This document shows, in pieces, positions 15,999 through 37,419 of a stretch of 64,000 nucleotides of DNA. Made by a program: the position numbers and the translations under genes. The notes under the pieces are model-generated. The model ran no database searches. It saw only the letters and a list, made by a program, of their open reading frames with translations, and had not been told where the DNA came from. The stretch is from NCBI GenBank assembly GCA_003223645.1, contig QHVT01000026.1, positions 1 to 64,000 of the forward strand. The letters are read 5' to 3'. The DNA is from Acidobacteriota bacterium. Its GTDB lineage: Bacteria > Acidobacteriota > Thermoanaerobaculia > Gp7-AA8. The number at the start of each line of letters is the position of its first letter. Position 1 is the first letter of the stretch.

Positions 15999-17435
15999 TC
16001 ATGCGGCGCGCTGCACGTCCGCGCCGAGTCGCCCCAACTCCAATCCCAGATACTCGCGCGCATTGAAAAACGACACGTCCTCGGCCAATCGCGCGAGGGC
16101 TTCGCGGTCATCGGGAGCGAGGCCGTCGCGTACGTCGTTGCCGAGGAGGTTGCAGACGAGTCGGCGGAAGTATTCGTGTCGTGAATACGACAGGAAGCTG
16201 CGGGAGTCGGTGACCATGCCGACGAAGCGGGCGAAGAGGCCCATGTTCGAGAGCGCGCGGATCTGCGCTTCCATCCCGTCCTTCTGATCGAGGAACCACC
16301 ACGCCGCGCCTTGCTGCATTTTTCCGGGGACGGAGCCGTCCTGGAAGTTGCCGATCATGGTGGCGAAGACTTCGTTGTCGGCGGGGTTGTTGTTGTAGAG
16401 GATCGTCTTCGCGAGCTGATTCGTGGAGTCGAGGCGGTCGAGGAAACGCGCGAGCGGGCGCGCCTGTTCGAAGTCGCCGATCGAGTCGAGTCCGGAGTCG
16501 GCGCCGAGTGTTCGTCGCATGCGCGAGCTCGTGTTGCGCAGCGCGCCGAGGTGGAACTGTTGGACCCAGCCGCGGCCGTGATCCATCAGCGCGAAGAGAT
16601 GCAGCAGCGTGGACTTGAATCCATGCGCGTCTTCCGCCGGTTTGCGCGAGCGCAGACGCGCGAAGATTTTCGCGGCCTCGGCGTCGCTGACGGGATCGGC
16701 GTAGATCTGTTCGAGTCCGTGATCGGACGCGCGACAGCCGGCTTCGTGAAAGGCCGCGTGACGTCGCTCGAGCGCGTCCATGAATTCGTCGAAGGTTGCG
16801 ATCGATGCGCCGGCCGCGGCTTCGAGTCGATCGACCCAGGCGTTCCACGCGTTCACGTCTTCGACTGCGAGCGCAGCGTCGGGACGCCAGGTCGGAACGA
16901 CGCGCGTGTCGGGATCGGGACGGCGCGCGAGCGCCTGATGATGATCGAGTGTGTCGGCGGGATCGTCGGTCGTCGCGACGACGGCGACGTTGAACTGGCG
17001 CAGCAAGCCCAGCGTCGTGAAGTTCGGATCACGCAGTTGTTCGTTGCAGCGCTCGAAGATGGATCGCGCGCTGCGCTCGTTCAACAGCTCGGTGATGCCG
17101 AACGGTTTCTTCAGCTCGCAATGCGTCCAGTGATAGAGCGGATTGCGCAGCGTGGCCGGAACGGTGCGCGCCCACGCTTCGAATTTTTCCCAGTCGCTCG
17201 CGTCGCCGGTGCAATAGCGCTCGTCGACGCCGTTCGCGCGCATCGCGCGCCACTTGTAGTGATCGCCGTCCAGCCACACCTCGGTGATCGATCGGAACTG
17301 ATGATTCGTCGCGATCTGCTCGACCGGCAGATGGCAGTGGTAGTCGATGATCGGCAAGTCAGCGACGCAGCGGTGATAGAGATCGCGCGCGACGCCGGTC
17401 TCGAGGAGGAAGTCGTCGTGAATGAAGTTGTTCAT
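15999..17435 (-). CDS. uxaC: Uronate isomerase
   Basis: A 478-residue UxaC, which converts D-galacturonate to D-tagaturonate and D-glucuronate to D-fructuronate. It begins with FIHDDFLLET and IIDYHCHLPVEQIA (metal His pair HCH). VAVVATTDDPADTLDHH, then HLGALRNTSSRM (His and Arg), TILYNNNPADNEVFATMIGN, and VGMVTDSRSFLSYSRHEYFRR near the C-terminus are family hallmarks. The length equals the family norm. It is cytoplasmic and the entry step for free galacturonate released by the polygalacturonase and GH105 of this island. No UxaB or UxaA is seen in the window. Confidence 0.97.
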   Translation of the reverse strand: MNNFIHDDFLLETGVARDLYHRCVADLPIIDYHCHLPVEQIATNHQFRSITEVWLDGDHYKWRAMRANGVDERYCTGDASDWEKFEAWARTVPATLRNPLYHWTHCELKKPFGITELLNERSARSIFERCNEQLRDPNFTTLGLLRQFNVAVVATTDDPADTLDHHQALARRPDPDTRVVPTWRPDAALAVEDVNAWNAWVDRLEAAAGASIATFDEFMDALERRHAAFHEAGCRASDHGLEQIYADPVSDAEAAKIFARLRSRKPAEDAHGFKSTLLHLFALMDHGRGWVQQFHLGALRNTSSRMRRTLGADSGLDSIGDFEQARPLARFLDRLDSTNQLAKTILYNNNPADNEVFATMIGNFQDGSVPGKMQQGAAWWFLDQKDGMEAQIRALSNMGLFARFVGMVTDSRSFLSYSRHEYFRRLVCNLLGNDVRDGLAPDDREALARLAEDVSFFNAREYLGLELGRLGADVQRAA

Positions 17436-20377: not shown

Positions 20378-20456
20378 ACGCAGTTGCGCAGTTGCGCAGT
20401 CGCGCGGTGAGACGCCGCGTAACTGAGCGACCGCGCGACCGCGCAACCCCGGTTCA
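20378..20456. repeat. Family 11 repeat (TTGCGCAG arms) flanked by a short direct repeat
   Basis: Inverted arms GCAGTTGCGCAGTTGCGCAG and GACCGCGCGACCGCGCAACC surround a centre with GTGAGACGCCGCGTAAC. It reaches the SDR stop codon. A 23-base near-identical direct repeat (CATCCACCGTGAGGA core) flanks it at 20356-20378 and 20478-20500; the right copy is SDR coding sequence. Another copy of family 11 lies in frame in the large pectinase at 22408. Confidence 0.75.
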
Positions 20457-21224
20457 CTGATTCACCCCGCTCGCGAGAAATCCTCCATCCACCGTGAGGA
20501 TCTCGCCGTTCACGAAACTCGCGGCTTCCGAGGCGAGGAAGACGCATGCGGGCGCGAGCTCTTCGACGCGGCCGAATCTGCGCATCGGGGTGCGCAGCTG
20601 AAATTCTTTTCCGCGCTCGGTGCCGTCGAGGAGCGAGGTGTTGAGCGGCGTACGAAAGACGCCGGGCGCGATGGCGTTGACGTTTACGCCGCGCGCTCCC
20701 CATTCGACGGCCAGCGCGCGCGTGAGTCCGGCGACGCCGGCTTTGCTCGCGGTGTACGCGGCGACTTCGAAGAGGCCGACGAACGATGCAAGCGACGCAA
20801 TATTGATGATGCGTCCATATCCTCGGGTCAGCATGTGCGCGCCGAAGACCTGACACGCGCGCAATGTGCCGGTGAGGTTCGTCTCGAGGATCGAATTCCA
20901 CTCCGCGTCGGTGACGTCGAGCGTCGGCGTGCGTTTGGTGATGCCGGCGCAGTTGACGAGGATGTCGACGCTGCCGAGCTTTTCTGTCGTTTGCGCGAGC
21001 GCGTTTTGCAGCGACGCGCGATCGCCGACGTCGGACGTCACGCGAACAGTGCGTCGTCCGCGTTGTTCGACTTCGTCTGCTGCTGCATCGACTTGTTCCT
21101 TGCGGCGCGAAGTCGGAACGACGTCCGCGCCGGCGTCGGCGAGTCCGCGCGTGAGCGCGAGTCCGATGCCCGACGTGCCGCCGGTCACGACGGCGACGCG
21201 TCCGTTCAGCGGAAGGTCGCTCAC
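20454..21224 (-). CDS. Short-chain dehydrogenase, likely sugar-acid dehydrogenase
   Basis: A 256-residue SDR. VTGGTSGIGLALTRGLA binds cofactor; NCAGITKRTP follows; Ser lies in INIASLASF; the catalytic YTASK is present; NVNAIAPGVFRTPLN and VEELAPACVFLAS close the fold. It is similar to gluconate 5-dehydrogenase and 2-keto-3-deoxy-L-fuconate dehydrogenase. The neighbouring fuconate dehydratase makes 2-keto-3-deoxy-L-fuconate its most economical substrate guess. The GTG start overlaps the stop of the GntR gene by four bases, so regulator and enzyme are co-translated. Confidence 0.85.
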   Translation of the reverse strand: MSDLPLNGRVAVVTGGTSGIGLALTRGLADAGADVVPTSRRKEQVDAAADEVEQRGRRTVRVTSDVGDRASLQNALAQTTEKLGSVDILVNCAGITKRTPTLDVTDAEWNSILETNLTGTLRACQVFGAHMLTRGYGRIINIASLASFVGLFEVAAYTASKAGVAGLTRALAVEWGARGVNVNAIAPGVFRTPLNTSLLDGTERGKEFQLRTPMRRFGRVEELAPACVFLASEAASFVNGEILTVDGGFLASGVNQ

Positions 21225-21964
21225 GCGTTGCCCATCACTTGCGAAGGAAGCACGCCGGCCGGCAGCGGCAACTCTTCGGACGCTTGCGCGGCGCGCGCGA
21301 GGTCGAGGTGTTTCGTCATCTCGACGCGCGCGCGCTCGGGATCGCGATCGCGAATCGCCTGATAAATGCGGCGATGCATTTCGGCCGACTCTTTCAAGTC
21401 GATCGCGTGCTCGACCGTCAGTCTTCGCTGTTCGTAGACGAGCGAGGAAATCATCTCGACGAGCGCGAGCAGCACGGGGTTACCCGAGGCGGAGGCAATG
21501 GCGCGATGAAAACGGACGTCGTGCACGAGGAACGTTTGCGGTTCGCTCAGCGCCGCGAACATGCCGGTGACTTCTTCGGCCATCGGCGCGAGGCGATCGG
21601 CGAGACCGCGCTCGGCGGCGAGTCCGGCCGCGCCGACCTCGAGGACCTTGCGCGCTTCGAAAATCTGATCGCGCGTGAAACCGTGCAGCGCGGCGAGAAA
21701 ACTCAAGGGGCCGGCGCCGAGGCGGGGGGGACCGCCGGTGATGAACGTGCCGGCGCCCTGTCGCGACTCGGTGACGCCCATCGCGGCGAGCGCGTGCAGT
21801 CCGGCACGGACGGTGGGCCGGCTGACGCCGAGCTGTTCGGCGAGCTCGCGCTCGGGGACGAGCCGATCGCCGGGCCGCAGCTCGCCGCGTTCGATCAATA
21901 AAGCGACGTGCCGGACCACCTGATCGGCAGTTTGGATTTCGATCGAGTCGGGTTTGCTTGTCAT
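21221..21964 (-). CDS. GntR/FCD transcription regulator (FadR/UxuR subfamily)
   Basis: A 247-residue repressor. The winged helix is about 8-75 (IQTADQVVRHVALLIERGEL, PERELAEQLGVSRPTVRAGL, TESRQGAGTFI). The FCD effector domain is about 100-235, with metal ligands in HDVRFHRAIA (Asp/His) and HRRIYQAIRDRD and a further His in TKHLDLAR. Family members ExuR and UxuR sense uronates and bind TTGGTATACCAA-like operators. Matching palindromes occur at 22064, 28303 and 28368. It therefore probably controls the pectin island and its own operon. It is first of the minus-strand operon with the SDR. Confidence 0.92.
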   Translation of the reverse strand: MTSKPDSIEIQTADQVVRHVALLIERGELRPGDRLVPERELAEQLGVSRPTVRAGLHALAAMGVTESRQGAGTFITGGPPRLGAGPLSFLAALHGFTRDQIFEARKVLEVGAAGLAAERGLADRLAPMAEEVTGMFAALSEPQTFLVHDVRFHRAIASASGNPVLLALVEMISSLVYEQRRLTVEHAIDLKESAEMHRRIYQAIRDRDPERARVEMTKHLDLARAAQASEELPLPAGVLPSQVMGNA

Positions 21965-22172: not shown

Positions 22173-25100
22173 TTGAGACGGATTGGTCTGACCTTATCGA
22201 TCGTCTTCGTTCTGCTTGCGGTAGACGCGAGCGGAGAGATCGTTCTTTTCGCCGACTATTCGGACCCCGACGTCATCCGCGTCGGCAACCTCTATTACTT
22301 GGTGTCGTCGAGCTTCGATGCCGTTCCGGGGCTGCCGATTCTGGAGTCGCCCGATCTGCAGCACTGGACGATCATCGGCCACGCGGTGCAACGGTTGCCG
22401 GATTGGGGTTACGCGGTTGCGCAGTCGCGCGGTGACGCGGCGCCGAGCAACCGGGCAACTGCGCAACCGCGCAACCTCATAGGCCACGGCAACGGCTTGT
22501 GGGCGCCGAGCATCCGCTATCACGACGGCTGGTTCTGGATTTACGTTGGCGATCCCGATCGCGGGATTTTCATGACGCGCGCGAAGAATGCGCGCGGGCC
22601 GTGGGCGCCGCTGACGCTCGTCAAAGCAGCGAAGGGTTGGATCGATCCCTGTCCGCTGTGGGATGACGACGGCAACGTCTATCTCGTGCATGCGTGGGCG
22701 AAGAGCCGCGCCGGTTTCAACAGCGTGCTGACGGTCAACAAGTTGACCTCTGACGGCACGCGCGTCGTCGATGACGGCGTGGTCGTGTTCGACGGCCGCG
22801 AGCGCCATCCGACGATCGAGGGTCCGAAGTTCTACAAGCGCAACGGCTGGTACTACATCTTCGCGCCGGCGGGCGGCGTGAAGCGCGGATGGCAGACGGT
22901 GCTGCGCTCGAAGAGCGTATATGGGCCGTACGAGGATCGCGTGATTCTCGAGGATGGGTTGCACCAGGGAGCCTATGTCGAAGGAACGTCTGACGACTGG
23001 TTCGTGCATTTTCAGGATCGCGGCGCGTACGGACGGATCGTCCATCGGCAGCGGCTCAAGTGGGTGAATGACTGGCCGGAGATCGAAACCCTTTCCGCGC
23101 CCGAGCCCGCGCCCGCTTCCGCGCCCGGGGTGGGGGAACGTGATCGCTTCGCTCGCCGCCCGCCCCGGGCGCGGAAGCGGGCGCGGGCGCGGGTTGGCGA
23201 AACCAGTGGAGCGGCGGCCGCTTCGGCCGCCGGCCCTCGCGAGAATCCGGCGGCCGAAGCGGCCGCCGCTCCACAGACTTCGGACGAATTCAATTCGATC
23301 GGCTTCCAGTGGCAATGGGAAGGAAATCCGCCGAAGGACGCCTACTCGCTGCGCAACGGCAAGCTGCGGCTCTCGGATGCGCCGCTGCTGCAGAAATTCA
23401 GCGCGCCGGCGTTTCATGCGACGACGCTCGTCGATCCTTCGTCGTTGAAGGTCGGCGAGCGCGCGGGGCTCGTGATTTCGGGGACGGAGTCCGCCGAGCT
23501 CGCGATCGCGCGAACGAAGAGCGGGTTCGTCGTCAATCAGGGAGAGGCGTCGCAGCCGATCGCGAACAAGCCCGTGCAATTGCGAGTCACGATCGCGCCG
23601 GAAGCGGTCGCGCGATTCAGCGTCGACGGAAAGCCGATCGGCAAGGCGTTCGTCGTGCGGCCGGGGAAGTGGATCGGCGCGAAGGTCGGCATTTTCGGAC
23701 GAGGCACGTTCGACTGGTTCCACGTCGAGCCGTTCGAGCCGGCGGAGAACGCGAGTCTCGTCGTCGCGCAGGACGGGAGCGGCGACTTCCGCACGATCCA
23801 GGAAGCGATCGACGCGATTCCGGCGGACAACGACGACGATCGCATCATCCTGGTTCGCAACGGCGCGTATCGCGAGAAGCTGATGATCGCGAAGAGTCAC
23901 ATCGCGCTCGTCGGAGAAGATCGCGAGAAGACGCGGATCGAGTTTGCGGAGCTGCGGCGCAATTGGCGCACGTCGCACCCCGATGACTACGGCGCGGCGG
24001 TCGTCAACATCGCCGACGGCGCGACCGACATCATCGTCGCCAATCTCACGGTCCTCAACGACTACGGCCGCACGCACGGCGGTGAGAACGATCATCAGTT
24101 CGCGATTCGTTCTCTTGGTCGCGCGAATCGCCTCGCTGTTTTGCACGCGAACGTGATCGCCGACGGCGGGGACACGTTCAGTCCGTGGAACCACGATACC
24201 GGCATGACGTACGCGAGTGATTCGTATTTCGAAGGCCACGTCGACTACGTCTGTCCGCGCGGCTGGGCGTACATCACCAACAGCCGCTTCTTCGGCCACA
24301 ACGACAACGCGAGCATCTGGCACGACGGCAGCCGCGATCGCGATCAGAAGTTCGTCATTCGCCATTCCTCGTTCGACGGCATCCCGAACTTTCCCCTCGG
24401 CCGCAATCATCGCGACGCGCAGTTCTATCTCGTCGACGTCACGTTCTCGTCGAACATGGCCGACCGCGCGATCTACGCGCCGCCCGCGCCCGACCCGATC
24501 CAGTGGGGCGCGCGCTATTACTTCGAGAACGCCCATCGCAACGGCGGCGATTACGCGTGGTTCGCCGACAACCTCGAGACCGCCGACGGCGCGCCGCGCG
24601 ACGAAGACATCACCGCGCCGTGGACGTTCGGCGGGCGCTGGGATCCGGCGTCGCTGCCGCCGGTGCTGCCGTTCGCGTCGATCCCGCGTCCCGAAAACGG
24701 CTGGCGGTGGGTCGATCCAGCGGGAGTGACGCTGCGCTGGACGCGCGCGCGCAACGCACGCCCTTCACCCGCGCCCGCGCCCGCTTCCGCGCCCGGGGTG
24801 GGGGACTTCGTCGCTTCGCTCGCCCCCACCCCGGGCACGGAAGCGGGCTCGGGCGCGGGCTCGGGCGAAGGCTCGGGACGTGCGCAGCGCGTTTGCTTTG
24901 GTGTAGTGCAGGCTTTCCAGCCTGCCCCTCAGCCGCAGGCTGGAAAGCCTGCGCCACACGAGGGATGCACAGACGTTCACGAATCTAAATTCGACACCGG
25001 TCCGCTCCAACCCGGCAAGACGTACGAGTGGCGCATCGATGACGGACCGACATGGACGTTCCGCGCCGATCCGCGCACGACGCGCATCGCGCTCGTCGCC

Positions 25101-26786
25101 GACTCGACGGTGACGGAGAAGCAGGGATGGGGACGCGGCTTCAAGTCGTACGTCGCGGAAAGCGCGGCGGTGTGGAATCTCGCGCGCGGCGGACGCAGCT
25201 CGAAGTCGTATCGCAGCGAAGGTCATTGGAACGACGTGCTGCGCCGGAAGCCGACGCACATCCTCCTGCAGTTCGGACACAACGACGAGCCGGGGAAGGG
25301 GAGCGATCGCGAGACCGATCTGCCCACGTTCAAGGCGAACATGGCGCGCTACGTCGACGACGCGCGCGCCATCGGCGCGGAGCCAATCCTCGTGACGTCG
25401 CTGCCGCGCCGCTACGACGATCCGGTGCTTCCACAGTACGCGGAGATGACGCGCGAAGTCGCGAAGGAGAAGAACGTCGCGCTCATCGATCTCAATGTAA
25501 AAGCGCGCGAGTTCGGCGACGCGTCGATCGGCCCGCTGAAAACGGACGGAACGATCGACAAGACGCATCTCAATGCCGAAGGGAGCGCGATCATCGGCGC
25601 GCTGATGGCGAGCGAAGTGCGCGCCGCCGTGCCGTCGCTCGCGCCGCACATCCGCGCTGCGAATTTGAGGAAGCCGCAAGGCGCGTGGTCGACGCGCATG
25701 GCCGACGCCGTGATGAAGCGCAATCCCGACGCGTCGACCGTCGACGGCAATCGCTGGGAGTACACGCCGGGACTGGTGATGAAGGCGATGTTCGACGTCG
25801 CGCAGCGCACCGGCGACGATCGCTACTTCAATTACGCCAAGTCGTATTACGACGCGTTCATCGCTCCCGACGGCACGATTCGCGGCGGCTACAACAAAGA
25901 CGACTACAACATCGATCGCATCAATCCCGGCAAGCCGCTGTTTCTGTTGTACGCAAAAACGAAAGACGAAAAGTATCGCGAGGCGATTGAGACGCTGCGC
26001 CAGCAGATGCGCGAGCATCCCCGCACGTCCGAGGGCGGGTTCTGGCACAAGAAGCGGTACCCGTATCAGATGTGGCTCGACGGCTTGTACATGGGCGCAC
26101 CGTTTCTCGCGCAGTACGCGAAGACGTTCCACGAGCCCGCGCTGTTCGACGACGTGATCAACCAATACGTGCTGATGGAGAAGCACGCGCGCGACGAGAA
26201 GACGGGACTGCTGGTTCACGGCTGGGACGAGAAGCGCGCGCAGAAGTGGGCCGATCCCACGACCGGACGCTCGCCCGCATTCTGGGGACGCGCGATGGGG
26301 TGGTACGCGATGGGACTCGTCGAAACGCTCGACTACGTGCCGCTCGATCATCCGCGCCGCGGCGAGTTGATCGCTATCCTGCAGCGGCTCGCGGAAGCGG
26401 TCGTGAAAGTGCAAGACCCGAACACGGGGGTGTGGTGGCAGGTCGTCGATCAGCCGGGACGCGACGGCAACTATCTCGAGTCCTCCGCCTCCACGATGTT
26501 CGCCTTCGCTCTCCTCAAGTCCACACGCCTCGGCTACATCGATCCGCCCTATCGCACTGCCGCGCGCCGCGCGTACGAAGGCATCATCAAGAACTTCATC
26601 ACCGTTGAGGACGGAGTCGTCAACATCAATCAGGCTTGCGCCGTCGCCGGCCTCGGCGGCGATCCCGAGAAAGGGGAGCGCTATCGCTCCGGCACCTTTG
26701 ATTACTACGTCACGGAGCCGGTGCGCAGCAACGACCCGAAGGCGGTCGGGCCGTTCATTTTCGCGAGTTTGGAGATGGAGCGATAA
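22173..26786 (+). CDS. Five-domain secreted pectin-degrading enzyme (GH43-CE8-SGNH-GH105)
   Basis: A 1537-residue secreted fusion. Signal peptide 1-20 (LTLSIVFVLLAV). GH43 about 21-305: base Asp in FADYSDPDVIRV, WIDPCPLWDDDG, acid Glu in IEGPKFYKRNG. GH43 C-terminal beta-sandwich about 370-528. CE8 pectin methylesterase about 530-830: DGSGDFRTIQEAI, SDSYFEGHVDYVCPRG with the catalytic Asp. An Fn3-like segment, then SGNH esterase about 965-1155 (LVADSTVT, QFGHNDE, DKTHLN), like rhamnogalacturonan acetylesterase. GH105 unsaturated rhamnogalacturonyl hydrolase about 1165-1537 (FWHKKRYPYQMWLDGLYMGA). Palindromic repeats lie in frame at residues 79-101, 308-367, 866-903 and 910-929. It would remove arabinan side chains, methyl and acetyl groups and unsaturated ends. 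TTG start; no better start found. Confidence 0.92.
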   Translation: MRRIGLTLSIVFVLLAVDASGEIVLFADYSDPDVIRVGNLYYLVSSSFDAVPGLPILESPDLQHWTIIGHAVQRLPDWGYAVAQSRGDAAPSNRATAQPRNLIGHGNGLWAPSIRYHDGWFWIYVGDPDRGIFMTRAKNARGPWAPLTLVKAAKGWIDPCPLWDDDGNVYLVHAWAKSRAGFNSVLTVNKLTSDGTRVVDDGVVVFDGRERHPTIEGPKFYKRNGWYYIFAPAGGVKRGWQTVLRSKSVYGPYEDRVILEDGLHQGAYVEGTSDDWFVHFQDRGAYGRIVHRQRLKWVNDWPEIETLSAPEPAPASAPGVGERDRFARRPPRARKRARARVGETSGAAAASAAGPRENPAAEAAAAPQTSDEFNSIGFQWQWEGNPPKDAYSLRNGKLRLSDAPLLQKFSAPAFHATTLVDPSSLKVGERAGLVISGTESAELAIARTKSGFVVNQGEASQPIANKPVQLRVTIAPEAVARFSVDGKPIGKAFVVRPGKWIGAKVGIFGRGTFDWFHVEPFEPAENASLVVAQDGSGDFRTIQEAIDAIPADNDDDRIILVRNGAYREKLMIAKSHIALVGEDREKTRIEFAELRRNWRTSHPDDYGAAVVNIADGATDIIVANLTVLNDYGRTHGGENDHQFAIRSLGRANRLAVLHANVIADGGDTFSPWNHDTGMTYASDSYFEGHVDYVCPRGWAYITNSRFFGHNDNASIWHDGSRDRDQKFVIRHSSFDGIPNFPLGRNHRDAQFYLVDVTFSSNMADRAIYAPPAPDPIQWGARYYFENAHRNGGDYAWFADNLETADGAPRDEDITAPWTFGGRWDPASLPPVLPFASIPRPENGWRWVDPAGVTLRWTRARNARPSPAPAPASAPGVGDFVASLAPTPGTEAGSGAGSGEGSGRAQRVCFGVVQAFQPAPQPQAGKPAPHEGCTDVHESKFDTGPLQPGKTYEWRIDDGPTWTFRADPRTTRIALVADSTVTEKQGWGRGFKSYVAESAAVWNLARGGRSSKSYRSEGHWNDVLRRKPTHILLQFGHNDEPGKGSDRETDLPTFKANMARYVDDARAIGAEPILVTSLPRRYDDPVLPQYAEMTREVAKEKNVALIDLNVKAREFGDASIGPLKTDGTIDKTHLNAEGSAIIGALMASEVRAAVPSLAPHIRAANLRKPQGAWSTRMADAVMKRNPDASTVDGNRWEYTPGLVMKAMFDVAQRTGDDRYFNYAKSYYDAFIAPDGTIRGGYNKDDYNIDRINPGKPLFLLYAKTKDEKYREAIETLRQQMREHPRTSEGGFWHKKRYPYQMWLDGLYMGAPFLAQYAKTFHEPALFDDVINQYVLMEKHARDEKTGLLVHGWDEKRAQKWADPTTGRSPAFWGRAMGWYAMGLVETLDYVPLDHPRRGELIAILQRLAEAVVKVQDPNTGVWWQVVDQPGRDGNYLESSASTMFAFALLKSTRLGYIDPPYRTAARRAYEGIIKNFITVEDGVVNINQACAVAGLGGDPEKGERYRSGTFDYYVTEPVRSNDPKAVGPFIFASLEMER
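22408..22475. repeat. Family 11 repeat in frame inside the GH43 domain
   Basis: Arms GTTACGCGGTTGCGCAGTCG and CAACTGCGCAACCGCGCAAC. It is translated as YAVAQSRGDAAPSNRATAQP within a loop before the conserved GNGLWAPSIRYHDG, a place where GH43 enzymes normally have only a few residues. Confidence 0.85.
23096..23194. repeat. Family 1 palindromic repeat, copy D, in frame
   Basis: Almost the same core as copy C. It is read without a stop as an Ala/Pro then Arg-rich linker (PAPASAPGVG..., then PRARKRARARV) between the GH43 catalytic domain and its C-terminal beta-sandwich. Confidence 0.92.
23206..23274. repeat. Family 2 palindromic repeat in frame, next to family 1 copy
   Basis: Arms GTGGAGCGGCGGCCGCTTCG and CGAAGCGGCCGCCGCTCCAC around GCCGCCGGCCCTCGCGAGAA. 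Starting 11 bases after copy D, it extends the same linker (SGAAAASAAGPRENPAAEAA), so two unrelated families were placed side by side in frame. Confidence 0.92.
24768..24879. repeat. Family 1 palindromic repeat, copy E, in frame
   Basis: It interrupts an Fn3-like segment between TLRWTRARNA and RAQRVCFG and is read as PSPAPAPASAPGVG then GTEAGSGAGSGEGSG. The reading frame on the right arm differs from copy D, giving Gly/Ser-rich instead of Arg-rich residues. Confidence 0.92.
24901..24959. repeat. Family 8 palindromic repeat in frame
   Basis: GTGTAGTGCAGGCTTTCCAG with its complement CTGGAAAGCCTGCGCCACAC. It is translated VQAFQPAPQPQAGKPAPHEG in a second loop of the same Fn3-like segment, 21 bases after copy E. 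A second family 8 copy lies at 61392. GGCTTTCCAGCCTGCC elements of this kind are common in several soil phyla. Confidence 0.9.
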
Positions 26787-28448: not shown

Positions 28449-31400
28449 ATGAAGCGAATCGGCCTGCTCAGCGCTTGCGTGTTCATTCTCACCCTTCCCA
28501 TCTTCGCGCAGGATTTTCGCGGCGCGGTCAGCGGCACCGTGAAAGACGCGAGCGGCGCGCTCCTGCCCGGCGTCACCATCACGATCCGCAACACGGAGAC
28601 GAACGTCACCAACACCACCGTCACCGACGCGAGGGGCGCGTATCAGGTGCGCTACCTGAACGCCGGCACCTATGACGTGCAGGCACAGCTCGAAGGATTG
28701 CAGACGGCGCAGCGCAAAAACGTTTCCGTCCGCGTCGCCGAGACGCTTCCCGTCGACTTCAAGATGGAGCAGGGCTCGGTGTCGGAGGTCATGGTCGTCA
28801 CCGCGAGCGCGCCGATCATCGACACGACGAGCGGCGTCACCGGCACGACCGTCGACAGCAATCAAATCCAGCAGCTCCCGTTGGGCGACGGCACCGCGTA
28901 CATGCTGACGCGGCTCGCGCCCGGCGTGATGGATTCGTCGGACCTGCACTTCTCGCGTCCGATGGACAACGGCAATCTCGCCGGCCTCGTTGCGAACGGC
29001 GCGCAGGGCGGCAACGAGTTCACGCTCGACGGCGCGCCGAACCGCGTCTCGCCGAACAATTTCAACGCCGCGAACAACAACGGCGTGGTCGGCTTCTCGC
29101 CTCCGTCCGAGGCGATCTCGCAGTTCAAGATCCAGACGAACGCGTTCGACGCGCAGTCCGGCCACACCGCCGGCGCGACCGTCAACCTCGCGCTCAAGAG
29201 CGGCACGAACGATTGGAAAGGAGCGGTCTCCTATTTCAATCGCTCCGACGCGCGCTCCGCAACGCCGCTGCTCACCAAGCGCGCCGGCGCGGACAAACCG
29301 ACGCGCGAGTACAACCGCTACAGCGGTACGTTCTCCGGTCCGCTCATCAAAGACCGCACGTTTTTCATGGTGTCGTTCGAGCACTTGAAAGACATCCAGC
29401 CCGAGCCGTCCTCGTACACCGTGCCGACCGCGAAGATGCGCGCCGGCGATATGTCGGAGTGGACCGGCGCCGGCAATCAGGTCTTCGACCCGCTGACGTC
29501 GACCGGCAGCAACAACGCGCGCACCGCGTTCGCCGGCAACATCATTCCGCAGAATCGCATCAACCCGATCGCGAAGGCCTACGCTGCGCTCTATCCGCTG
29601 CCGAATCGTCCCGGCCTGGAAGACAACTACTTTACCAATATGCTCCGGCCGTACGACTACAACGCCGTGCTGCTGCGCGGCGATCACAACTTCAACGGCG
29701 CGAACAAACTCTTCCTCAATGCCTACTGGAACAAGCGGCAGGAAGACCGCTACAACTGGGCGCTCGGCGCGGAAAACGCGACCGGGAACGGCGAGATCGG
29801 CGGCTTCCTCGTCACGCAGGGCTTCGACTATCGCAGCAACAAAGGCGCGACGCTCGGCTACACGACGCTCATCCACGAGTCGCTCGCGCTCGACGTGATC
29901 GGCGCCTGGTCGCAGTTCGGCGAGTGGCGCACCGCCGGCGGCGAGATCGATCCGGCCGCGCTCGGATTCTCTTCGCAGGTCGTGTCGCTGATGAACGGAT
30001 ACAAATACCTCCCCTTCATCACGTTCGGCGGCTTCAGCTCGACGAACGCGAACTCGCGCATGGCCTCTCTCGGCTCGCAGCGCTCCGACTTCGGCGAAGG
30101 CTTCAGCCGTCCGTTCACCAACATCTCGCTCACGCCGACCGCGAGCTGGATCATGGGCGAGCATTCGCTGCGCACCGGCTACGAGCTGCGCAACCAGCGC
30201 TGGAACATCACTTCCGCGCCGTACGGCGCCGGCCGCTATCACTTCAACGGCGCCTACACGCGTGCGAACAACTCCGGCGCGACGAACGTGATCCCGCAGT
30301 CGTGGGCGCAGTTTCTTCTCGGCATTCCGACGACCGGCACCGGCGCTCCCGCGACGGTCAGCCCGTCGGGCTGCTGCCCGAGCCAGTTCGAGATCGCCGC
30401 GAACGCCGACTATCGCCAGGTCTCGCATTCGCTCTTCGCGCAGGACGACTGGTCCGTCAATCAGAGGCTGACGCTGAACCTCGGCGCGCGCATCGAGTAC
30501 GACCAGGCGATGCGCGAAGCGCAGGACCGCAACATTCGGGGATTCAACTCAACGCTGACGAGTCCGATCGCGGCGGCGGCGCTCGCGAAATACGCGGCGA
30601 ATCCGATTCCGGAAATCGCGGCGAGCGCCTTCAAGGTCAACGGCGGACTCGAATTCGCCGACGGTCCGATCTACAACGACCTGCACAAAATCCTGCCGCG
30701 CGCCGCGTTCTCGTATCTCATCAATGACCGCACCGTCCTTCGCGGCGGCGCCGGTCTCTTCAGCTACGACTACTACTTCGACGCCGGCAATCAGATCGGC
30801 TTCTCGCAGCCGACCGGCATCATCTCGACGCTCGACAACGGCAAGACCTTCCTCGCCGACATCGGCAGCCCCGGCTTCACCGCGCTCACGCCGCCGACCG
30901 GCGCATCGCTCGGCGCGGCCACGGGACTCGGCGCCTCGCTCGGCACGATCGTGCCCGCGCACCGCGAGTCTGCGTACTACACGCGCTGGCAGCTCGGCGG
31001 ACAGCGCGACTTCGGCGGCGGCTGGTCGGCCGAAGCGTTCTACGTCGACTCGCGCGGACGCCACCTCCCGGTGCAGCGCGAGATCGACGGCATTCCGTTC
31101 CAGTACCTCTCGACCGCGACGCAGCGCGACACCGCGAACGAACAGTTCCTCAGCGCGTCGGTTCCGAATCCCTTCACCGGTTTGCTTCCCGGCACGGGAC
31201 TCAACGGCGCGACCACCACGCGCGGACAGCTCCTCCGTCCGTTCCCGCAGTTCACCGGCATCATCCTCGAGGAGTACACCGGCTCCGATCACTATCAGGC
31301 CGGATCGCTTCGCATCGACAAGCGTTTCCGCAGCGGCAACTCGCTCATCGCGACGTACACGCGCTCGCGCACGACCGACAGACTCAGCTTCCTCAATCCT

Positions 31401-32030
31401 GCGCAGGACGTGCTGGAGAGCCGCATTTCTCCGAACGACCGCCCGAACCGCGCCACGCTTGGTGCAACCATCCGGTTGCCTTTCGGCCACGGCTCGCGCT
31501 ACGGCTCGAACTGGAACAGCATTACCGACGCGATTCTCGGCGGATGGACGATCAGCGCGACCTATCAGTATCAGGACGGCTTCCCGCTGACGTGGAGCAG
31601 CAACCTTTACTACGACCCTGCGCGCAATCCGAAAGATCTCGTGTCTCACATCGGCAGCGACTGCCCCGGAGGCGGCACGGCCGGTCTCGATTGCCCGGCC
31701 TGGGATCTCTCCGGCTTCTACCTCGATCCGAATCCCGCGACGCGCCGCAGCGATCAGCGCATCTCGATGGGCAACACCGTTCGCCGTTTCCCGTCGACGC
31801 TGCCGAACGTCCGCACCGACAATCTCCATCTCCTCGACCTCGGCGTCTACAAGACCTTCGGTCTGCCCTCGGACATCGATCTGCAGGTGCGCATCGAAGT
31901 CATCAACGCGCTCAACTACACGGTGCTCTGGAATCCGAATCAGGATCCGACCAGCGCGTCGTTCGGTCTTGTGAACCAGGACCGCAACAATCCGCGCGAC
32001 ATCCAGCTTGGAGCGAAGCTGACGTTCTGA
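28449..32030 (+). CDS. Oar-type TonB-dependent outer-membrane receptor
   Basis: A 1193-residue receptor. Signal peptide MKRIGLLSACVFILTLPIFA. A carboxypeptidase-regulatory-like domain spans about 22-105 (GAVSGTVKDASGALLPGVTI). The plug is about 115-220 (VVTASAPIIDTTSG, IQQLPLGDG, FTLDGAPNRVSPN). A long 22-strand-type barrel ends in QLGAKLTF with the terminal Phe. This architecture is typical of acidobacterial Oar-like receptors that import oligosaccharides with TonB energy. It stands divergent from the lyase and upstream of DUF4861, GH28 and KDG genes, so pectin oligosaccharides are the likely ligand. The start is supported by AGAGGAG seven bases upstream. Confidence 0.95.
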   Translation: MKRIGLLSACVFILTLPIFAQDFRGAVSGTVKDASGALLPGVTITIRNTETNVTNTTVTDARGAYQVRYLNAGTYDVQAQLEGLQTAQRKNVSVRVAETLPVDFKMEQGSVSEVMVVTASAPIIDTTSGVTGTTVDSNQIQQLPLGDGTAYMLTRLAPGVMDSSDLHFSRPMDNGNLAGLVANGAQGGNEFTLDGAPNRVSPNNFNAANNNGVVGFSPPSEAISQFKIQTNAFDAQSGHTAGATVNLALKSGTNDWKGAVSYFNRSDARSATPLLTKRAGADKPTREYNRYSGTFSGPLIKDRTFFMVSFEHLKDIQPEPSSYTVPTAKMRAGDMSEWTGAGNQVFDPLTSTGSNNARTAFAGNIIPQNRINPIAKAYAALYPLPNRPGLEDNYFTNMLRPYDYNAVLLRGDHNFNGANKLFLNAYWNKRQEDRYNWALGAENATGNGEIGGFLVTQGFDYRSNKGATLGYTTLIHESLALDVIGAWSQFGEWRTAGGEIDPAALGFSSQVVSLMNGYKYLPFITFGGFSSTNANSRMASLGSQRSDFGEGFSRPFTNISLTPTASWIMGEHSLRTGYELRNQRWNITSAPYGAGRYHFNGAYTRANNSGATNVIPQSWAQFLLGIPTTGTGAPATVSPSGCCPSQFEIAANADYRQVSHSLFAQDDWSVNQRLTLNLGARIEYDQAMREAQDRNIRGFNSTLTSPIAAAALAKYAANPIPEIAASAFKVNGGLEFADGPIYNDLHKILPRAAFSYLINDRTVLRGGAGLFSYDYYFDAGNQIGFSQPTGIISTLDNGKTFLADIGSPGFTALTPPTGASLGAATGLGASLGTIVPAHRESAYYTRWQLGGQRDFGGGWSAEAFYVDSRGRHLPVQREIDGIPFQYLSTATQRDTANEQFLSASVPNPFTGLLPGTGLNGATTTRGQLLRPFPQFTGIILEEYTGSDHYQAGSLRIDKRFRSGNSLIATYTRSRTTDRLSFLNPAQDVLESRISPNDRPNRATLGATIRLPFGHGSRYGSNWNSITDAILGGWTISATYQYQDGFPLTWSSNLYYDPARNPKDLVSHIGSDCPGGGTAGLDCPAWDLSGFYLDPNPATRRSDQRISMGNTVRRFPSTLPNVRTDNLHLLDLGVYKTFGLPSDIDLQVRIEVINALNYTVLWNPNQDPTSASFGLVNQDRNNPRDIQLGAKLTF

Positions 32031-32043
32031 TACGAGAGACCGT

Positions 32044-33093
32044 GTGAACCGATTTTGCTACCTGGCGGCGGCTCTCGGAGCCGCCGTCAGCGTCTCCGCC
32101 GCCACCACCGTCATCGTTCGCAATGATCTCGACCTCGCGCGCCCGTCCGAAACGGTCGAGGTGAGCGCGGCTTCGCTTGCGCCGCTCGGCGACGATCTCA
32201 CGCGTGTTCACGTGTACGAGAACGGCGTCGAAGTCCTCGCACAATCGATCGACGGGTGGTTGATTTTTCAAACCGACATGCCGCCGAAGGGCGTGAAATC
32301 GTTCGAGCTGCGACTCGGCGAGAAGCGCGTCTACAAACGCGCCGACTTTCGCGTGTACGGACGATTCGTGCGCGAGCGCTTCGATGATTTCGCGTGGGAA
32401 AACGATCGCGTCGCGCATCGCATGTACGGCGCGGCGCTGGAGACGTGGCAGAAAGAGCCGCTGACGTCGAGCACCGTCGACGTCTGGCTCAAACGCACGC
32501 GACGGCTCGTGATCAACGACTGGTACCTGGTCGACGACTATCACCGCGACACCGGCGAAGGCGCCGATTTTTATTCGGCCGGAAAAAGCCGCGGCTGCGG
32601 CGGCGGGGGAGTGTGGCGCGACGGAAAGCTCGTGGTGTCGAAAAACTTCCGCGACTCGAAAGTCCTCGCCAACGGCCCGATTCGCCTGATCTTCGAGCTG
32701 TACTATCCCGACTTCAAGGAAACGAAGCGCATCACCCTCGACGCGGGACAAAACTTCAATCGCTTCGAGAGCAACGTCACCGACACTGCCGGCATCAAGA
32801 AAACGCAGACGCAGAACATGCGGATCGATCGCGATCACGGAATCCTCCGCGCCTGGGACTCCGTCGCCAACAACAACGGCGAGTTCGGCTGCGCGGTCGT
32901 GTTCGATCCGAAGGCCGAGGTTGCGGAAGCGGATGGCAATCAACTCTTTGTCACGAAGACGCCGCAACCGTATTGGGTGGGCACGGGCTGGGATCGCAGC
33001 GGCGACTTCGCGAACCGCGACGCGTTCGATCGCTACGTCGATCAGTTCGTGCAGAGATTGCGCTCGCCGGTGCGTGTCGAGGTGAAACCGTGA
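32044..33093 (+). CDS. DUF4861 family secreted protein
   Basis: A 349-residue exported protein. Signal peptide MNRFCYLAAALGAAVSVSAA from the GTG at 32044. The body matches DUF4861 proteins of pectin loci (VRNDLDLARPSETVEV, FDDFAWENDRVAHRMYGAAL, DDYHRDTGEGADFYSAGKSRGCGG, ending GDFANRDAFDRYV). The fold suggests a carbohydrate-active beta-sandwich; activity is unproven. It follows the TonB receptor by 13 bases and overlaps the GH28 start by four bases, so all three are one transcript. A role in handling pectin oligosaccharides in the periplasm is inferred from context. Confidence 0.88.
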   Translation: MNRFCYLAAALGAAVSVSAATTVIVRNDLDLARPSETVEVSAASLAPLGDDLTRVHVYENGVEVLAQSIDGWLIFQTDMPPKGVKSFELRLGEKRVYKRADFRVYGRFVRERFDDFAWENDRVAHRMYGAALETWQKEPLTSSTVDVWLKRTRRLVINDWYLVDDYHRDTGEGADFYSAGKSRGCGGGGVWRDGKLVVSKNFRDSKVLANGPIRLIFELYYPDFKETKRITLDAGQNFNRFESNVTDTAGIKKTQTQNMRIDRDHGILRAWDSVANNNGEFGCAVVFDPKAEVAEADGNQLFVTKTPQPYWVGTGWDRSGDFANRDAFDRYVDQFVQRLRSPVRVEVKP

Positions 33094-34550
33094 AGCCTTC
33101 TTTGGACTGCGGCAGCCACGCTGCCGCTTTCCCACACTTCACGCGCCGCACGCTCCTCCGCAACACGCTCATCGCCGGCACCGGCATCGCGTTCGGAGTG
33201 GTGCGCGCCTCCGGCGCGCCCCCGCCCCAAGGCGCGCCGGAGGCGCGCACCACTCCACAAGATCCGTGGGACGCGCTGCCCGACATCCTCGCGCGCATCG
33301 GTCCTCCCAACATCCCGCGCCGCGACTTCGTCGTGAAGAAAGGCGCGATCCAGAAAACGATCGACGCCGCATTCAAAGCCGGAGGCGGACGCGTCGTCGT
33401 TCCCGCGGGCGACTATGAAGTCGCGCCGATTCATCTGAAAAGCAGAATCGAGTTGCACGTCGCGAAAGACGCGACGCTGCGCTTCACGCGCGACACGTCC
33501 AGGTACCCGCTCGTCCTCACGCGCTGGGAAGGTGTCGAGCTGATGAACTACTCGCCGCTCATTTACGCGCTCGACTGCGAAGACATCGCCATCACCGGCG
33601 ACGGCACGCTCGATGGACAAGCGGATGAAGAGCATTGGTGGCCGTGGAAAGGCGTCGTCACCGGCAAGCGCGACGACGTCACGAAAAACGCCGACGTTCC
33701 CGCGCCGCAGCTCGCCGACCGCAACGCGCTCTTCAGGATGGGGCAGGACGGAGTGCCGGTCGCGGAGCGCGTGTTCGGCGCGGGACATTTTTTGCGCCCG
33801 ACGTTCATCGAGCCGTATCGTTGCAGGAACGTGCTCATCGAAGGACTGACGATCAGGAACGCGCCGTTCTGGGTCACGCATCCGACGCTCTCCTCGAACG
33901 TCATCGTGCGCGGCATCACCGTGATCTCGCACGGACCGAACAACGACGGCTGCGATCCCGAATGCTCGCGCGACGTGCTGATCGAGAACTGCGTCTTCGA
34001 CACCGGCGACGACTGCATCGCGCTGAAGTCGGGACGCAACAACGACGGACGCCGCGTGAACGTGCCGGTCGAGAATGTCGTCATTCGCAACTGTGAAATG
34101 CGCGACGGTCACGGCGGCATCACCATCGGCAGTGAAGTGAGCGGCGGCGCGCGCAACGTCTTCGCCGAGAAGTGCCGGCTCGACAGCCCGAACCTCGAGC
34201 GCGGCCTGCGCCTCAAGACGAACACCGTCCGCGGCGGCGTGATCGAGAACGTCTTCGTGCGCGACATCGAGATCGGCAACGTCAAGCTCGCGCCGATCGA
34301 GATCGACCTCCGCTACGAGCCACCCGAGTCCGGACCGTTCATCCCCGAAGTGCGCAACGTGCGCGTGGAGCGCATGACGTCGAAGAGCAGCAAACACGCG
34401 ATCTACATCCGCGGGCTGGAACAGGCGCCGCTGAAAAACATCGTCGTGCGCGACAGCGTCTTCCGCGGCGTCGCGCAGGGCGACATCATCGAAGGCGCCG
34501 TCGACCTCACCCTCGAGCGCGTCATCACCGAAGGAGAAATCAAGAAATGA
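33090..34550 (+). CDS. GH28 polygalacturonase with repeat-derived Tat signal region
   Basis: A 486-residue glycoside hydrolase of family 28. The export signal is Tat-like: FTRRTLLRNTLIAGTGIAF. The residues before it (MKPSLDCGSHAAAF) come from a family 4 repeat arm, and the cleavage region VVRASGAPPP from a family 3 palindrome. The catalytic beta-helix carries GPNNDGCDPE (NxD), DTGDDCIALKSG (DD), GHGGITIGSE (GHG) and RGLRLKTN (RxK), the complete GH28 set. It hydrolyses polygalacturonan, probably exo-acting by similarity to bacterial secreted forms. The GTG start overlaps the DUF4861 stop, and the stop overlaps the next ATG. Confidence 0.95.
   Translation: MKPSLDCGSHAAAFPHFTRRTLLRNTLIAGTGIAFGVVRASGAPPPQGAPEARTTPQDPWDALPDILARIGPPNIPRRDFVVKKGAIQKTIDAAFKAGGGRVVVPAGDYEVAPIHLKSRIELHVAKDATLRFTRDTSRYPLVLTRWEGVELMNYSPLIYALDCEDIAITGDGTLDGQADEEHWWPWKGVVTGKRDDVTKNADVPAPQLADRNALFRMGQDGVPVAERVFGAGHFLRPTFIEPYRCRNVLIEGLTIRNAPFWVTHPTLSSNVIVRGITVISHGPNNDGCDPECSRDVLIENCVFDTGDDCIALKSGRNNDGRRVNVPVENVVIRNCEMRDGHGGITIGSEVSGGARNVFAEKCRLDSPNLERGLRLKTNTVRGGVIENVFVRDIEIGNVKLAPIEIDLRYEPPESGPFIPEVRNVRVERMTSKSSKHAIYIRGLEQAPLKNIVVRDSVFRGVAQGDIIEGAVDLTLERVITEGEIKK
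33098..33136. repeat. Family 4 half-copy at the GH28 start
   Basis: TTTGGACTGCGGCAGCCACG then CTGCCGCTTT equals the left arm of the composite at 14924. It starts six bases into the GH28 gene and encodes LDCGSHAAAF, so the gene's start codon context and first residues are repeat-derived. Confidence 0.85.
33195..33256. repeat. Family 3 palindromic repeat in frame in GH28
   Basis: GGAGTGGTGCGCGCCTCCGG with arm partner CCGGAGGCGCGCACCACTCC around CGCGCCCCCGCCCCAAGGCG. It encodes GVVRASGAPPPQGAPEARTT, which spans the expected signal peptidase region and the start of the mature enzyme. Confidence 0.92.
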
Positions 34551-35407
34551 CTTTCCCCGCGATCGATGCAACGACGTGCGTCGTACGCGACACCGCCAGC
34601 CAACGCGGACGGCACATCTCCGTCAAACCCGGAACCACCGCCGCGCAGCATTTGTACTACGGCCGGATCGTTCTGAGTGGAGCGGCGCCCGCTTCGGGCG
34701 CCGAAACCCCGACGGCCGAAGCGGCCGCCGCTCCACAGTCCGTCGCGTTTTCCACAGAAGATCGCGAAACCGCATTGATCTGCCTGCGCGGAAACGCACG
34801 CGTCGATGCCGGCGAGACTTTCGAACTCGAAAAATACGACGCCCTCTACATCCCCCGCGACACTGAAGTCACGGTCACCGGCACCTGCGATCTCGCCGAA
34901 GTCGCCGCACCCGTCGAAGCGCATCATCCGCTCCAATTCATCCGTTTCGCCGACGTCCAGAACGATCCCGCGCTGCACTTCGACACCGGCGGTCCTTCGT
35001 CGCAACGCACGCTCAACATTCTCATCGGCAAGAACGTCGAAGCGGGACGCATCCTCGCCGGCGTCACGTTCTCGAAGCCCGGCAACTGGACGTCGTGGCC
35101 GCCGCATGAACACGCGCGGCTCGCCGAGGAGGCGTATCTCTATATCGAGATGCCGGAGCCGGGATGGGGACTGCAGCTCGTCTACAACGATCCGCGCAAT
35201 CCCGAGTTGGTCGCGGTCGTGAAGCAGGACGACGTCGTGATCATGCCGCAGGGCTATCACCCCAACGTCTCCGCGCCCGGCGGTACGATCAACTTCCTCT
35301 GGATGATGGCCGCGAATCGCGAGGACGTCGACCGCCAGTTCGGCGTCGTCAACGTGCAACCCGAATACGCAACCGGCGGATCGGGACTCGAGGCGTCGAG
35401 AAAATGA
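34547..35407 (+). CDS. KduI/IolB-fold uronate isomerase
   Basis: A 286-residue cupin of the KduI/IolB family, closer to IolB (5-deoxy-glucuronate isomerase) than to E. coli KduI. The metal site reads SWPPHEHARLAEEAYLYIEM, with a later GYHPNVSAPGG His. In a pectin locus with KduD, KDG kinase and KDPG aldolase it most likely isomerises 4-deoxy-5-hexosulose-uronate to 2,5-diketo-3-deoxygluconate. An inositol role is less likely because no iol genes are present. A family 2 palindrome inserts about 20 residues (GAAPASGAETPTAEAAAAPQ) after YYGRIVLS in a surface loop. The ATG overlaps the GH28 stop. Confidence 0.85.
   Translation: MTFPAIDATTCVVRDTASQRGRHISVKPGTTAAQHLYYGRIVLSGAAPASGAETPTAEAAAAPQSVAFSTEDRETALICLRGNARVDAGETFELEKYDALYIPRDTEVTVTGTCDLAEVAAPVEAHHPLQFIRFADVQNDPALHFDTGGPSSQRTLNILIGKNVEAGRILAGVTFSKPGNWTSWPPHEHARLAEEAYLYIEMPEPGWGLQLVYNDPRNPELVAVVKQDDVVIMPQGYHPNVSAPGGTINFLWMMAANREDVDRQFGVVNVQPEYATGGSGLEASRK
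34677..34736. repeat. Family 2 palindromic repeat in frame in the isomerase
   Basis: GTGGAGCGGCGCCCGCTTCG and CCGAAGCGGCCGCCGCTCCA arms around GCGCCGAAACCCCGACGG. Exactly 60 bases, so it adds 20 codons without disturbing the frame. Confidence 0.92.
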
Positions 35408-35549: not shown

Positions 35550-36635
35550 ATGAACATCAAGCCCCCCGAGGACGCCCGCTTCGATCTCGTTTCTTTGGGC
35601 GAAGTCATGCTGCGCCTCGATCCGGGCGAAGGCCGCGTCTCGACCACGCGCACGTTTCAATGTTGGGAAGGCGGCGGCGAGTACAACGTCTCGCGCGGAC
35701 TGCGGCGCTGCTTCGGCATGCGCACCGCGATCGTCACTGCGCTCGTCGACAACGCGGTCGGCCGCCTCGTCGAAGACTTGATGCTGCAGGGCGGAACCGA
35801 TCTTTCATTTCTGCGATGGGTCGCCGACGACGGCGTCGGACGCCGCGCGCGCAACGGACTCAATTTCACCGAGCGCGGTTTCGGCGTGCGCGCCGCACTC
35901 GGCAGCTCCGATCGCGGACACACCGCCGTCTCGCAGCTGAAAGCAGGCGACGTCGATTGGGACGCCGTCCTCTCCGGCGCGCGCTGGTTCCACACCGGCG
36001 GCATCTTCGCCGCGCTTTCCGAAACGACTCCCGACGTCGCGCGCGAAGCGATGGAAGCCGCGCGCAAACATGGCGCGATCGTTTCCTACGATCTCAACTA
36101 TCGACCTTCGTTGTGGAAGGGAATCGGCGGCCCCGAAAAGGCGCGCGCCGTGAATCGCGAGCTCGTCTCCCTCGTCGACGTGCTCTTCGGAAACGAAGAA
36201 GACTTCAGCGTCGCCCTCGGCTTCGACGTCGAAGGCGTCGACGAACACCTCGGCGAATTGCCGAAAGAAGCCTTCCAGAAAATGATCGGCAAAGTGCGCG
36301 AGTCCTATCCGCAGCTGCAAGTCATCGCGACCACACTCCGCGTCGCACACACCGCGACGATCAACGATTGGGGCGCGATTGCGTGGCACAACGGTGCCTT
36401 CTACGAAGCGACGCCGCGCGCCGATCTCGAGATCCTCGATCGCGTCGGCGGCGGCGACTCCTTCGCCTCCGGCCTGATCTACGGCTTTCTCGCGGAGAAA
36501 GGCGCGCAATGGGCCGTCGAATGCGGCGCCGCCCACGGCGCGCTCGCCATGACGACACCTGGCGACACGAGCATGGCCACACTCGCCGAAGTCGAGCGCG
36601 TGATGAAGGGCGGGACCGCCCGCGTAAGCCGGTGA
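35550..36635 (+). CDS. kdgK: 2-keto-3-deoxygluconate kinase (PfkB family)
   Basis: A 361-residue ribokinase-fold sugar kinase. SLGEVMLRLDPG starts the fold, GGGEYNVSRGLRR is the PfkB signature 1 region, SYDLNYRPSLWKG is typical of KdgK, FGNEEDF follows, and DRVGGGDSFASGLIYG (signature 2) holds the catalytic Asp. It phosphorylates KDG to KDPG with ATP. An insertion around EGVDEHLGELPKEAFQKMI matches a KdgK subgroup. It is followed by the aldolase that cleaves its product. Both genes are preceded by family 1 repeats. Confidence 0.94.
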   Translation: MNIKPPEDARFDLVSLGEVMLRLDPGEGRVSTTRTFQCWEGGGEYNVSRGLRRCFGMRTAIVTALVDNAVGRLVEDLMLQGGTDLSFLRWVADDGVGRRARNGLNFTERGFGVRAALGSSDRGHTAVSQLKAGDVDWDAVLSGARWFHTGGIFAALSETTPDVAREAMEAARKHGAIVSYDLNYRPSLWKGIGGPEKARAVNRELVSLVDVLFGNEEDFSVALGFDVEGVDEHLGELPKEAFQKMIGKVRESYPQLQVIATTLRVAHTATINDWGAIAWHNGAFYEATPRADLEILDRVGGGDSFASGLIYGFLAEKGAQWAVECGAAHGALAMTTPGDTSMATLAEVERVMKGGTARVSR

Positions 36636-36780: not shown

Positions 36781-37419
36781 ATGAACGTCGTCGAACGCAT
36801 CCGCGAAGTCGGCCTCGTCCCCGTCGTGCGCGCCGCGTCCGCCGACGAGGCCTTCGCCGCCGTCGAAGCCATCCGCGCCGGCGGCATCCCGATTCTCGAG
36901 ATCACGCTCACCGTTCCCGGCGCCGTCGCGATCATCAGTCAGCTGTCCAAACGCCTCGGCGACGAAGCCCTTATCGGTGCCGGAACCGTGCTCGATGCCG
37001 ACACCGCACAGCAATGCATCGACGCCGGCGCGCGCTTCATCGTCAGCCCCGCGCTCCATATCCCGACGATCGAACGTTGCCGCCGCCTCGAAGTGCCGGT
37101 GTTTCCCGGCGCGCTCACGCCGACCGAGATCGTCACCGCCTGGCGCGCCGGCGCGAATGCAGTAAAAGTCTTTCCCGCGAACGCCCTCGGTGGCGCCAGC
37201 TATCTCAAGTCGCTCAAAGCCCCGCTGCCACAAATCGAATTGCTCCCGACCGGCGGCGTCAATCTGAAAACCGCCGCCGACTTCATCGCTGCAGGAGCGT
37301 TCGCGTTAGGCGTCGGTGCCGATCTCGTCGACCTCGCCGCGCTGCGTCGAGGCGAAGCCGCGTCGATCACGGAGAAGGCGCGGCAGTACGTGGCGGCGGT
37401 GGCAGCGGCGCGAGCGTAA
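36781..37419 (+). CDS. eda: KDPG aldolase
   Basis: A 212-residue class I aldolase. GLVPVVRAASADEAFAAVEA, GIPILEITLTVPGA (catalytic Glu), LIGAGTVLDADTAQQCIDAGARFIVSP and AVKVFPANALGG (Schiff-base Lys) followed by PLPQIELLPTGGVN are the KDPG/KHG aldolase set. It splits 2-keto-3-deoxy-6-phosphogluconate into pyruvate and glyceraldehyde 3-phosphate and is the final step of the uronate pathway. It is the last gene of the plus-strand pectin operon; a family 2 hairpin follows. Confidence 0.96.
   Translation: MNVVERIREVGLVPVVRAASADEAFAAVEAIRAGGIPILEITLTVPGAVAIISQLSKRLGDEALIGAGTVLDADTAQQCIDAGARFIVSPALHIPTIERCRRLEVPVFPGALTPTEIVTAWRAGANAVKVFPANALGGASYLKSLKAPLPQIELLPTGGVNLKTAADFIAAGAFALGVGADLVDLAALRRGEAASITEKARQYVAAVAAARA

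Follow-up and report, generated by a model that had tools for sequence, protein, structure and literature searches.

A single open reading frame in the window, a 64,000-nucleotide stretch of an Acidobacteriota genome (contig QHVT01000026.1), was found to encode GH43, GH43_C2, CE8-like, Fn3-like, SGNH esterase and GH105 domains, in that order by Pfam and alignment, together with five in-frame palindromes belonging to four dispersed families. This is probably an exported pectin-trimming chain derived from fused operon neighbours, in which REP-type inserts came later and were tolerated. The features of the gene are as follows.

22173..26786 (+), fusion ORF, 1537 aa, TTG start, signal-peptide-like N-terminus at residues 1-21
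22242..23078 (+), GH43 catalytic domain, residues 24-302, Pfam E 1e-50
22407..22476 (+), palindrome A, in frame within the GH43 domain, residues 79-102, disordered loop
23100..23193 (+), palindrome B, GH43/C2 linker, residues 310-341, same family as D
23206..23274 (+), palindrome C, GH43/C2 linker, residues 345-368
23280..23732 (+), GH43_C2 concanavalin-like domain, residues 370-520, Pfam match 370-518, E 6e-12
23715..23777 (+), fusion joint, FHVE + PFEPAENAS + LVVAQDGSG of the CE8-like domain
23742..24690 (+), CE8-like beta-helix, about residues 524-839, Q642, D667, D691 and R744 kept
24690..25097 (+), Fn3-like module, about residues 840-975, between CE8-like and SGNH domains
24768..24859 (+), palindrome D, Fn3-like module, residues 866-896
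24901..24959 (+), palindrome E, interstrand loop of the Fn3-like module, residues 910-929
25098..25668 (+), SGNH/CE12-like esterase, residues 976-1165, Lipase_GDSL_2 match 986-1139, 2e-17
25686..26783 (+), YteR-like GH105, residues 1172-1537, Glyco_hydro_88 match 7e-117

The frame was open throughout its 1537 codons with no internal stop. Pfam found the five domains named in the first-pass annotation, in order and each above its curated cut-off (GH43, GH43_C2, Pectinesterase, Lipase_GDSL_2, and Glyco_hydro_88, a model that also catches GH105). That annotation had counted five pectin-active domains; all five are present, but GH43_C2 is an accessory beta-sandwich, which leaves four catalytic-type domains, and the Fn3-like module and the five palindromes had been missed. 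Catalytic positions were kept across the GH43, SGNH and GH105 domains in alignments to homologs and solved relatives; the catalytic roles given to the residues listed below are those established for these families. A candidate signal peptide (RRIGLTLSIVFVLLAVDASG, followed by E) was recognised by eye at the N-terminus and, together with the signal-like starts of nearly all GH105 relatives, suggests that the chain is exported.

The same domain order was also found elsewhere, in one frame, in an ortholog from another genus of the same family (loci L093 and L014, which are the same contig). Because the five domains share a single frame in this ortholog too, the frame in the window is not an assembly accident, and an assembly artefact or a chance ORF was ruled out by its conservation combined with purifying selection in every domain. 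Pairwise dN/dS against L093 was 0.23 for GH43, 0.43 for C2, 0.30 for CE8, 0.27 for the Fn3-like module, 0.35 for SGNH, and 0.21 for GH105. On these sequence comparisons, the single-frame fusion is regarded as genuine. A family search of 18 genomes located the CE8 region in one genome besides that of the window, and at the thresholds used it was present in 4 of the 149 genomes searched for the class and 5 of the 396 searched for the phylum; among the genomes searched, the full fusion was seen in two only. The 2220-aa frame of the ortholog was considered as a larger protein and rejected, as the ~740 residues that precede the signal peptide look like a spurious N-terminal extension.

In the GH43 domain, the base D31, D158 and the acid E216 were invariant in 22 homologs, and both the Asp/Asp/Glu catalytic triad and the fold match were present (Pfam, homolog alignment, and Foldseek to GH43 enzymes). 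The first part of the chain had a predicted fold that matched GH43+C2 enzymes by Foldseek, and the nearest solved relatives of the GH43 domain were beta-xylosidases and arabinofuranosidases. By sequence and predicted structure, this part resembles exo-acting GH43+C2 enzymes of those two kinds far more closely than endo-arabinanases, which weakens the arabinan trimming originally assigned to it. One of the best GH43 structural matches, 6MLY (bifunctional GH43-CE BACEGG_01304 of Bacteroides eggerthii), likewise combines GH43 with a carbohydrate esterase, but the match covered only the GH43 part of its 807-residue PDB chain, for which no GH105 is named.

The CE8-like domain has the pectinesterase beta-helix fold according to both Pfam (residues 529-707, 7e-14) and Foldseek, for which the top match was 1xg2 (E 1e-10). 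The earlier naming of a CE8 pectin methylesterase is weakened by the loss of the canonical QDT / VDFIFG / LGRPW signature, in place of which the domain reads GGDT(F), VDYVCPRG, and LGRNHRD. In the comparison alignment, 3uw0 and other methylesterases carry QDTLY as the second active-site block and VDFIFG as the next, whereas the CE8-like domain retains two Asp and the Arg and has lost the Gln of QDT and the Trp of LGRPW. Since the canonical QDT and Trp signature is absent, methylesterase activity is uncertain. It is possible, though the balance is tilted against it, that the domain is an esterase or a binding module for another substituent, in which case the chain would not demethylate; this would be compatible with an exported pectin-trimming fusion. 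Such a role is favoured by the clade as a whole, in which Gly stands for the QDT Gln and LGRxxRD for the LGRPW Trp region, and by the Pfam match, which does not extend beyond the first half of the profile; it is opposed by the retention of the two Asp residues, one Gln and the Arg, and by a predicted fold nearest to that of pectin methylesterases (TMt about 0.6-0.7). Replacement of the GGDT...W / VD(Y/F)xCPRG / LGRxxRD type was seen in all 13 aligned clade members, from Acidobacteriota and Bacteroidota. The clade that shares these noncanonical motifs (window 23742-24690, L013, L093, L136, L137, L018, L019, L064, and L066) may differ in its substrate.

The Fn3-like module had no Pfam family match and is so named for its likeness in a beta-strand model and a shared alignment; it is common to L013, L136, L137, and L093, and the copy in the fusion is interrupted by palindromes D and E. 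In the SGNH domain, the Ser, Gly, Asn and Asp-x-x-His blocks (S978, G1007, N1037, and D1129/H1132) were present and were common to at least 30 homologs. Its solved relatives are YxiM and rhamnogalacturonan acetylesterase, with 1deo and 3c1u among both the sequence and the fold matches, and the predicted fold of the middle part of the chain matched SGNH esterases as well as pectin methylesterases (Foldseek). The domain probably removes acetyl groups.

The last domain was matched over its full length by YteR-type GH105 enzymes, its best solved relatives (Bacillus subtilis 1nc5/2gh4; 4wu0), and all active-site positions were kept, with D1248, D1303, H1349, W1371 and R1373 aligning to the YteR active site. 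YteR-type enzymes stand alone, whereas the GH105 here is C-terminal in a predicted exported fusion. The first-pass annotation had considered a secreted GH105 unusual, which was not supported: a signal-peptide-like or lipobox start was found in nearly all of about 40 relatives, and lipobox or type I signals have been tabulated for GH105s (PMC7953866). As the clade is routinely exported, an exported location is ordinary for this domain.

Multidomain carbohydrate enzymes and fusions of glycoside hydrolases with esterases are common. The expectation that the present activities normally occupy separate genes of one locus was borne out in the fetched loci, where GH43-C2 occurred alone in 25 frames and GH105 without the other domains in 73. 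Two other Acidobacteriota clusters, L013 and L137, have the same modules in the same order as the fusion, but there the genes are separate, overlapping or adjoining one another, and carry signal-like sequences of their own; PL10, which was not found in the genome of the window, is also present. L013 consists of three genes, GH43-C2, CE8-Fn3, and GH105-PL10, joined by overlapping stop and start codons (GTGTCGAGTAG; ATGA): GH43-C2 ends in FRVE and is overlapped by the start of CE8-Fn3, which has a lipoprotein-like signal and whose stop in turn overlaps the ATG of GH105, with the PL10 lyase at the GH105 C-terminus. In L137, GH43-C2 ends in FFRVE and is followed directly by a CE8-Fn3-SGNH-PL10 gene, and a CE8-SGNH combination was found in L142. 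At the joint in the fusion, GH43-C2 ends in F.VE as in the separate L013 and L137 genes, and about 9 linker residues then replace the stop and the signal peptide; the CE8-like domain has no signal of its own. The L013 and L137 arrangements likely represent earlier steps toward fusion, and the simplest reading of the origin would be that collinear, translationally coupled operon genes were fused through loss of stops and signal peptides. The separate-gene state would be the older one.

A search of its own genome with the fusion protein returned about 70 short matches, nearly all to two linkers and a GH43 loop. For the B/D family, about 40 sites were scored in this genome and no match was obtained in the same-genus genome searched; families A, C, and E had 29, 40, and 36 sites, respectively, in 800 kb. 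A census of 800 kb with 623 predicted genes (called with a simple codon-usage predictor rather than taken from curated annotation) gave 18 internal palindromes in 16 genes, with at most two per gene, as against five in the fusion gene. The Poisson probability of five or more in a gene was 2e-7, a figure that is uncorrected for some thousands of genes and ignores the possibility that long multidomain genes tolerate inserts better. AlphaFold pLDDT was below 50 at residues 85-106, 308-368, and 861-901, which correspond to palindromes A, B plus C, and D, and the flanking domains were mostly confident. All five palindromes were absent from the ortholog L093 and from L013, which have empty sites, and palindrome A was also absent from GH43 homologs. 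An unrelated palindrome occupies the same GH43/C2 linker in the ortholog (L093 7415-7466). That palindromes are a recurrent source of linkers and loops in newly fused enzymes, entering the same linker independently in two genera and enriched in fusions far above the genome average, is rather doubtful. Also in the ortholog (L093:6468-6650), the likely ATG lies at the end of a palindrome of the CGTC type (AGGATGAC), and the signal peptide thus seems to take its start codon from the repeat.

At the mRNA level the palindromes form extremely stable folds (-169.5 kcal/mol for the 175 nt of B plus C) that could hinder transcription or translation of the fusion gene. An improbable alternative is that the chain does not work at full length but as a polyprotein, split by the hairpins or by linker proteolysis into the pieces GH43, C2-CE8, and SGNH-GH105 while it is being made or afterwards. 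Hairpin arms of up to 37 bp with very low folding energies, long disordered linkers near two domain borders, and the separate production of the parts in relatives would fit such splitting, but none of the domains after the first has its own signal peptide, and cleavage would therefore have to follow export; in the ortholog, moreover, the fusion is retained with short tight joints and one long internal palindrome only, and D and E are located within the Fn3-like module and not at a border. It is very improbable that selection favoured the Pro/Ala-rich inserts as flexible spacers separating the catalytic domains: two of the five lie in the GH43/C2 linker, where the ortholog gained a different palindrome, and PAPAPASAP-type peptides look like natural linkers, but one insert lies within the GH43 catalytic domain, two break up the Fn3-like module, the same peptides occur in unrelated proteins, and tolerance accounts for the sites without selection.

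Peptides encoded by the palindromes recur in proteins such as KduI and a GntR-aminotransferase. In-gene copies of family C were read in a single frame (SGAAAASA...) in six of seven cases, and the inserts were RPE-like in their in-frame insertion, preferred frame, and empty sites in L093 and L013. Four copies of family C flank the only Y1 (RAYT-like, PF01797) transposase gene detected in the genome, one before and three after it; repeats surrounding a Y1 transposase are the layout known from REP-associated transposases (PMC3733652). Family C is thus a set of dispersed palindromes adjoining a Y1 HUH transposase, a link that the other families lack. With respect to GTAG/CGTC tags, CGTC fits the CGTCATCCTGAG family in the window; within the boundaries drawn here, the ends of A-E show neither tag. 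Insertion of REP and RPE elements in frame is known, sometimes with several in a single gene or with different repeats at roughly the same site (PMC3733652). As in the fusion, intragenic REP and Rickettsia palindromic elements are dispersed palindromes lying in frame in protein genes (PMC3733652); the fusion differs in that a single enzyme holds five inserts from four families, one of which adjoins a Y1/RAYT-like gene.

Further copies were noted outside the fusion gene. At L138:1308-2195 (G000:C4, with the Y1 gene at about 53122), three family C copies lie in tandem with 124-base spacing, and the frame of the Y1 transposase gene itself extends into one family C copy. KduI contains an in-frame family C palindrome at 34677-34736 of the window (SGAAPASGAETPTAEAAAAPQ, residues 44-64). 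In the GGAGTGGTGCGCGCC... palindrome family, 11 of 14 sites are inside predicted genes (window 33195-33256, 43241-43302, and 27412-27454, and eight more in C44/C21); they are mostly read as GVVRASGAP...PEARTTP in unrelated proteins (VVRASGAP-type in most of the 11), which is RPE-like.

The pectin context proposed for the fusion was supported by the surrounding genes.

15999..17435 (-), UxaC uronate isomerase
20454..21224 (-), SDR dehydrogenase, KduD candidate
21221..21964 (-), GntR/FCD regulator
28449..32030 (+), CarboxypepD_reg plus outer-membrane beta-barrel receptor, TonB-dependent type
32044..33093 (+), DUF4861 protein, between the receptor and GH28
33102..34550 (+), GH28 polygalacturonase-type
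34547..35407 (+), KduI
35550..36635 (+), PfkB sugar kinase, KDG kinase candidate
36781..37419 (+), KDPG/KHG aldolase

The PL10 and PL11 lyase families, the only two lyase families searched, had no match in the 97%-complete genome of the window. GH105 enzymes free DKI from unsaturated oligosaccharides, and KduI and KduD turn DKI into KDG (PMC7953866). Given this product route and the pathway genes around the fusion, the fusion protein most likely works outside the cytoplasm, where it trims pectic chains and supplies the KduI-KduD route. We infer the enzyme activities and their substrate, the order of events, and the near-neutrality of the inserts as follows. GH43 would remove side-chain pentoses, the CE8-like and SGNH domains, with the Fn3-like spacer between them, would remove ester groups, and the YteR-like GH105 would remove unsaturated galacturonate from oligosaccharide ends; the released sugar would then enter the KduI-KduD-KDG kinase-KDPG aldolase route encoded nearby. 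REP-type palindromes would have entered surface loops and linkers in frame, after fusion, in the species of the window, and would have been kept because they do little harm to folded domains.

No description of a GH43-CE8-SGNH-GH105 chain was found in the open-licence literature searched. The domain combination and the presence of five inserts in one enzyme appear to be new; fusions and in-frame REP/RPE insertions are each already known. Among living relatives, the steps from overlapping genes to a single multi-enzyme chain can be read in series, and the costs and benefits of enzyme fusion are therefore testable with natural intermediates. In this GC-rich, soil-type Acidobacteriota bacterium, REP-type repeats add peptides to enzymes, even within a catalytic domain, and empty insert sites are available for comparison in an ortholog.
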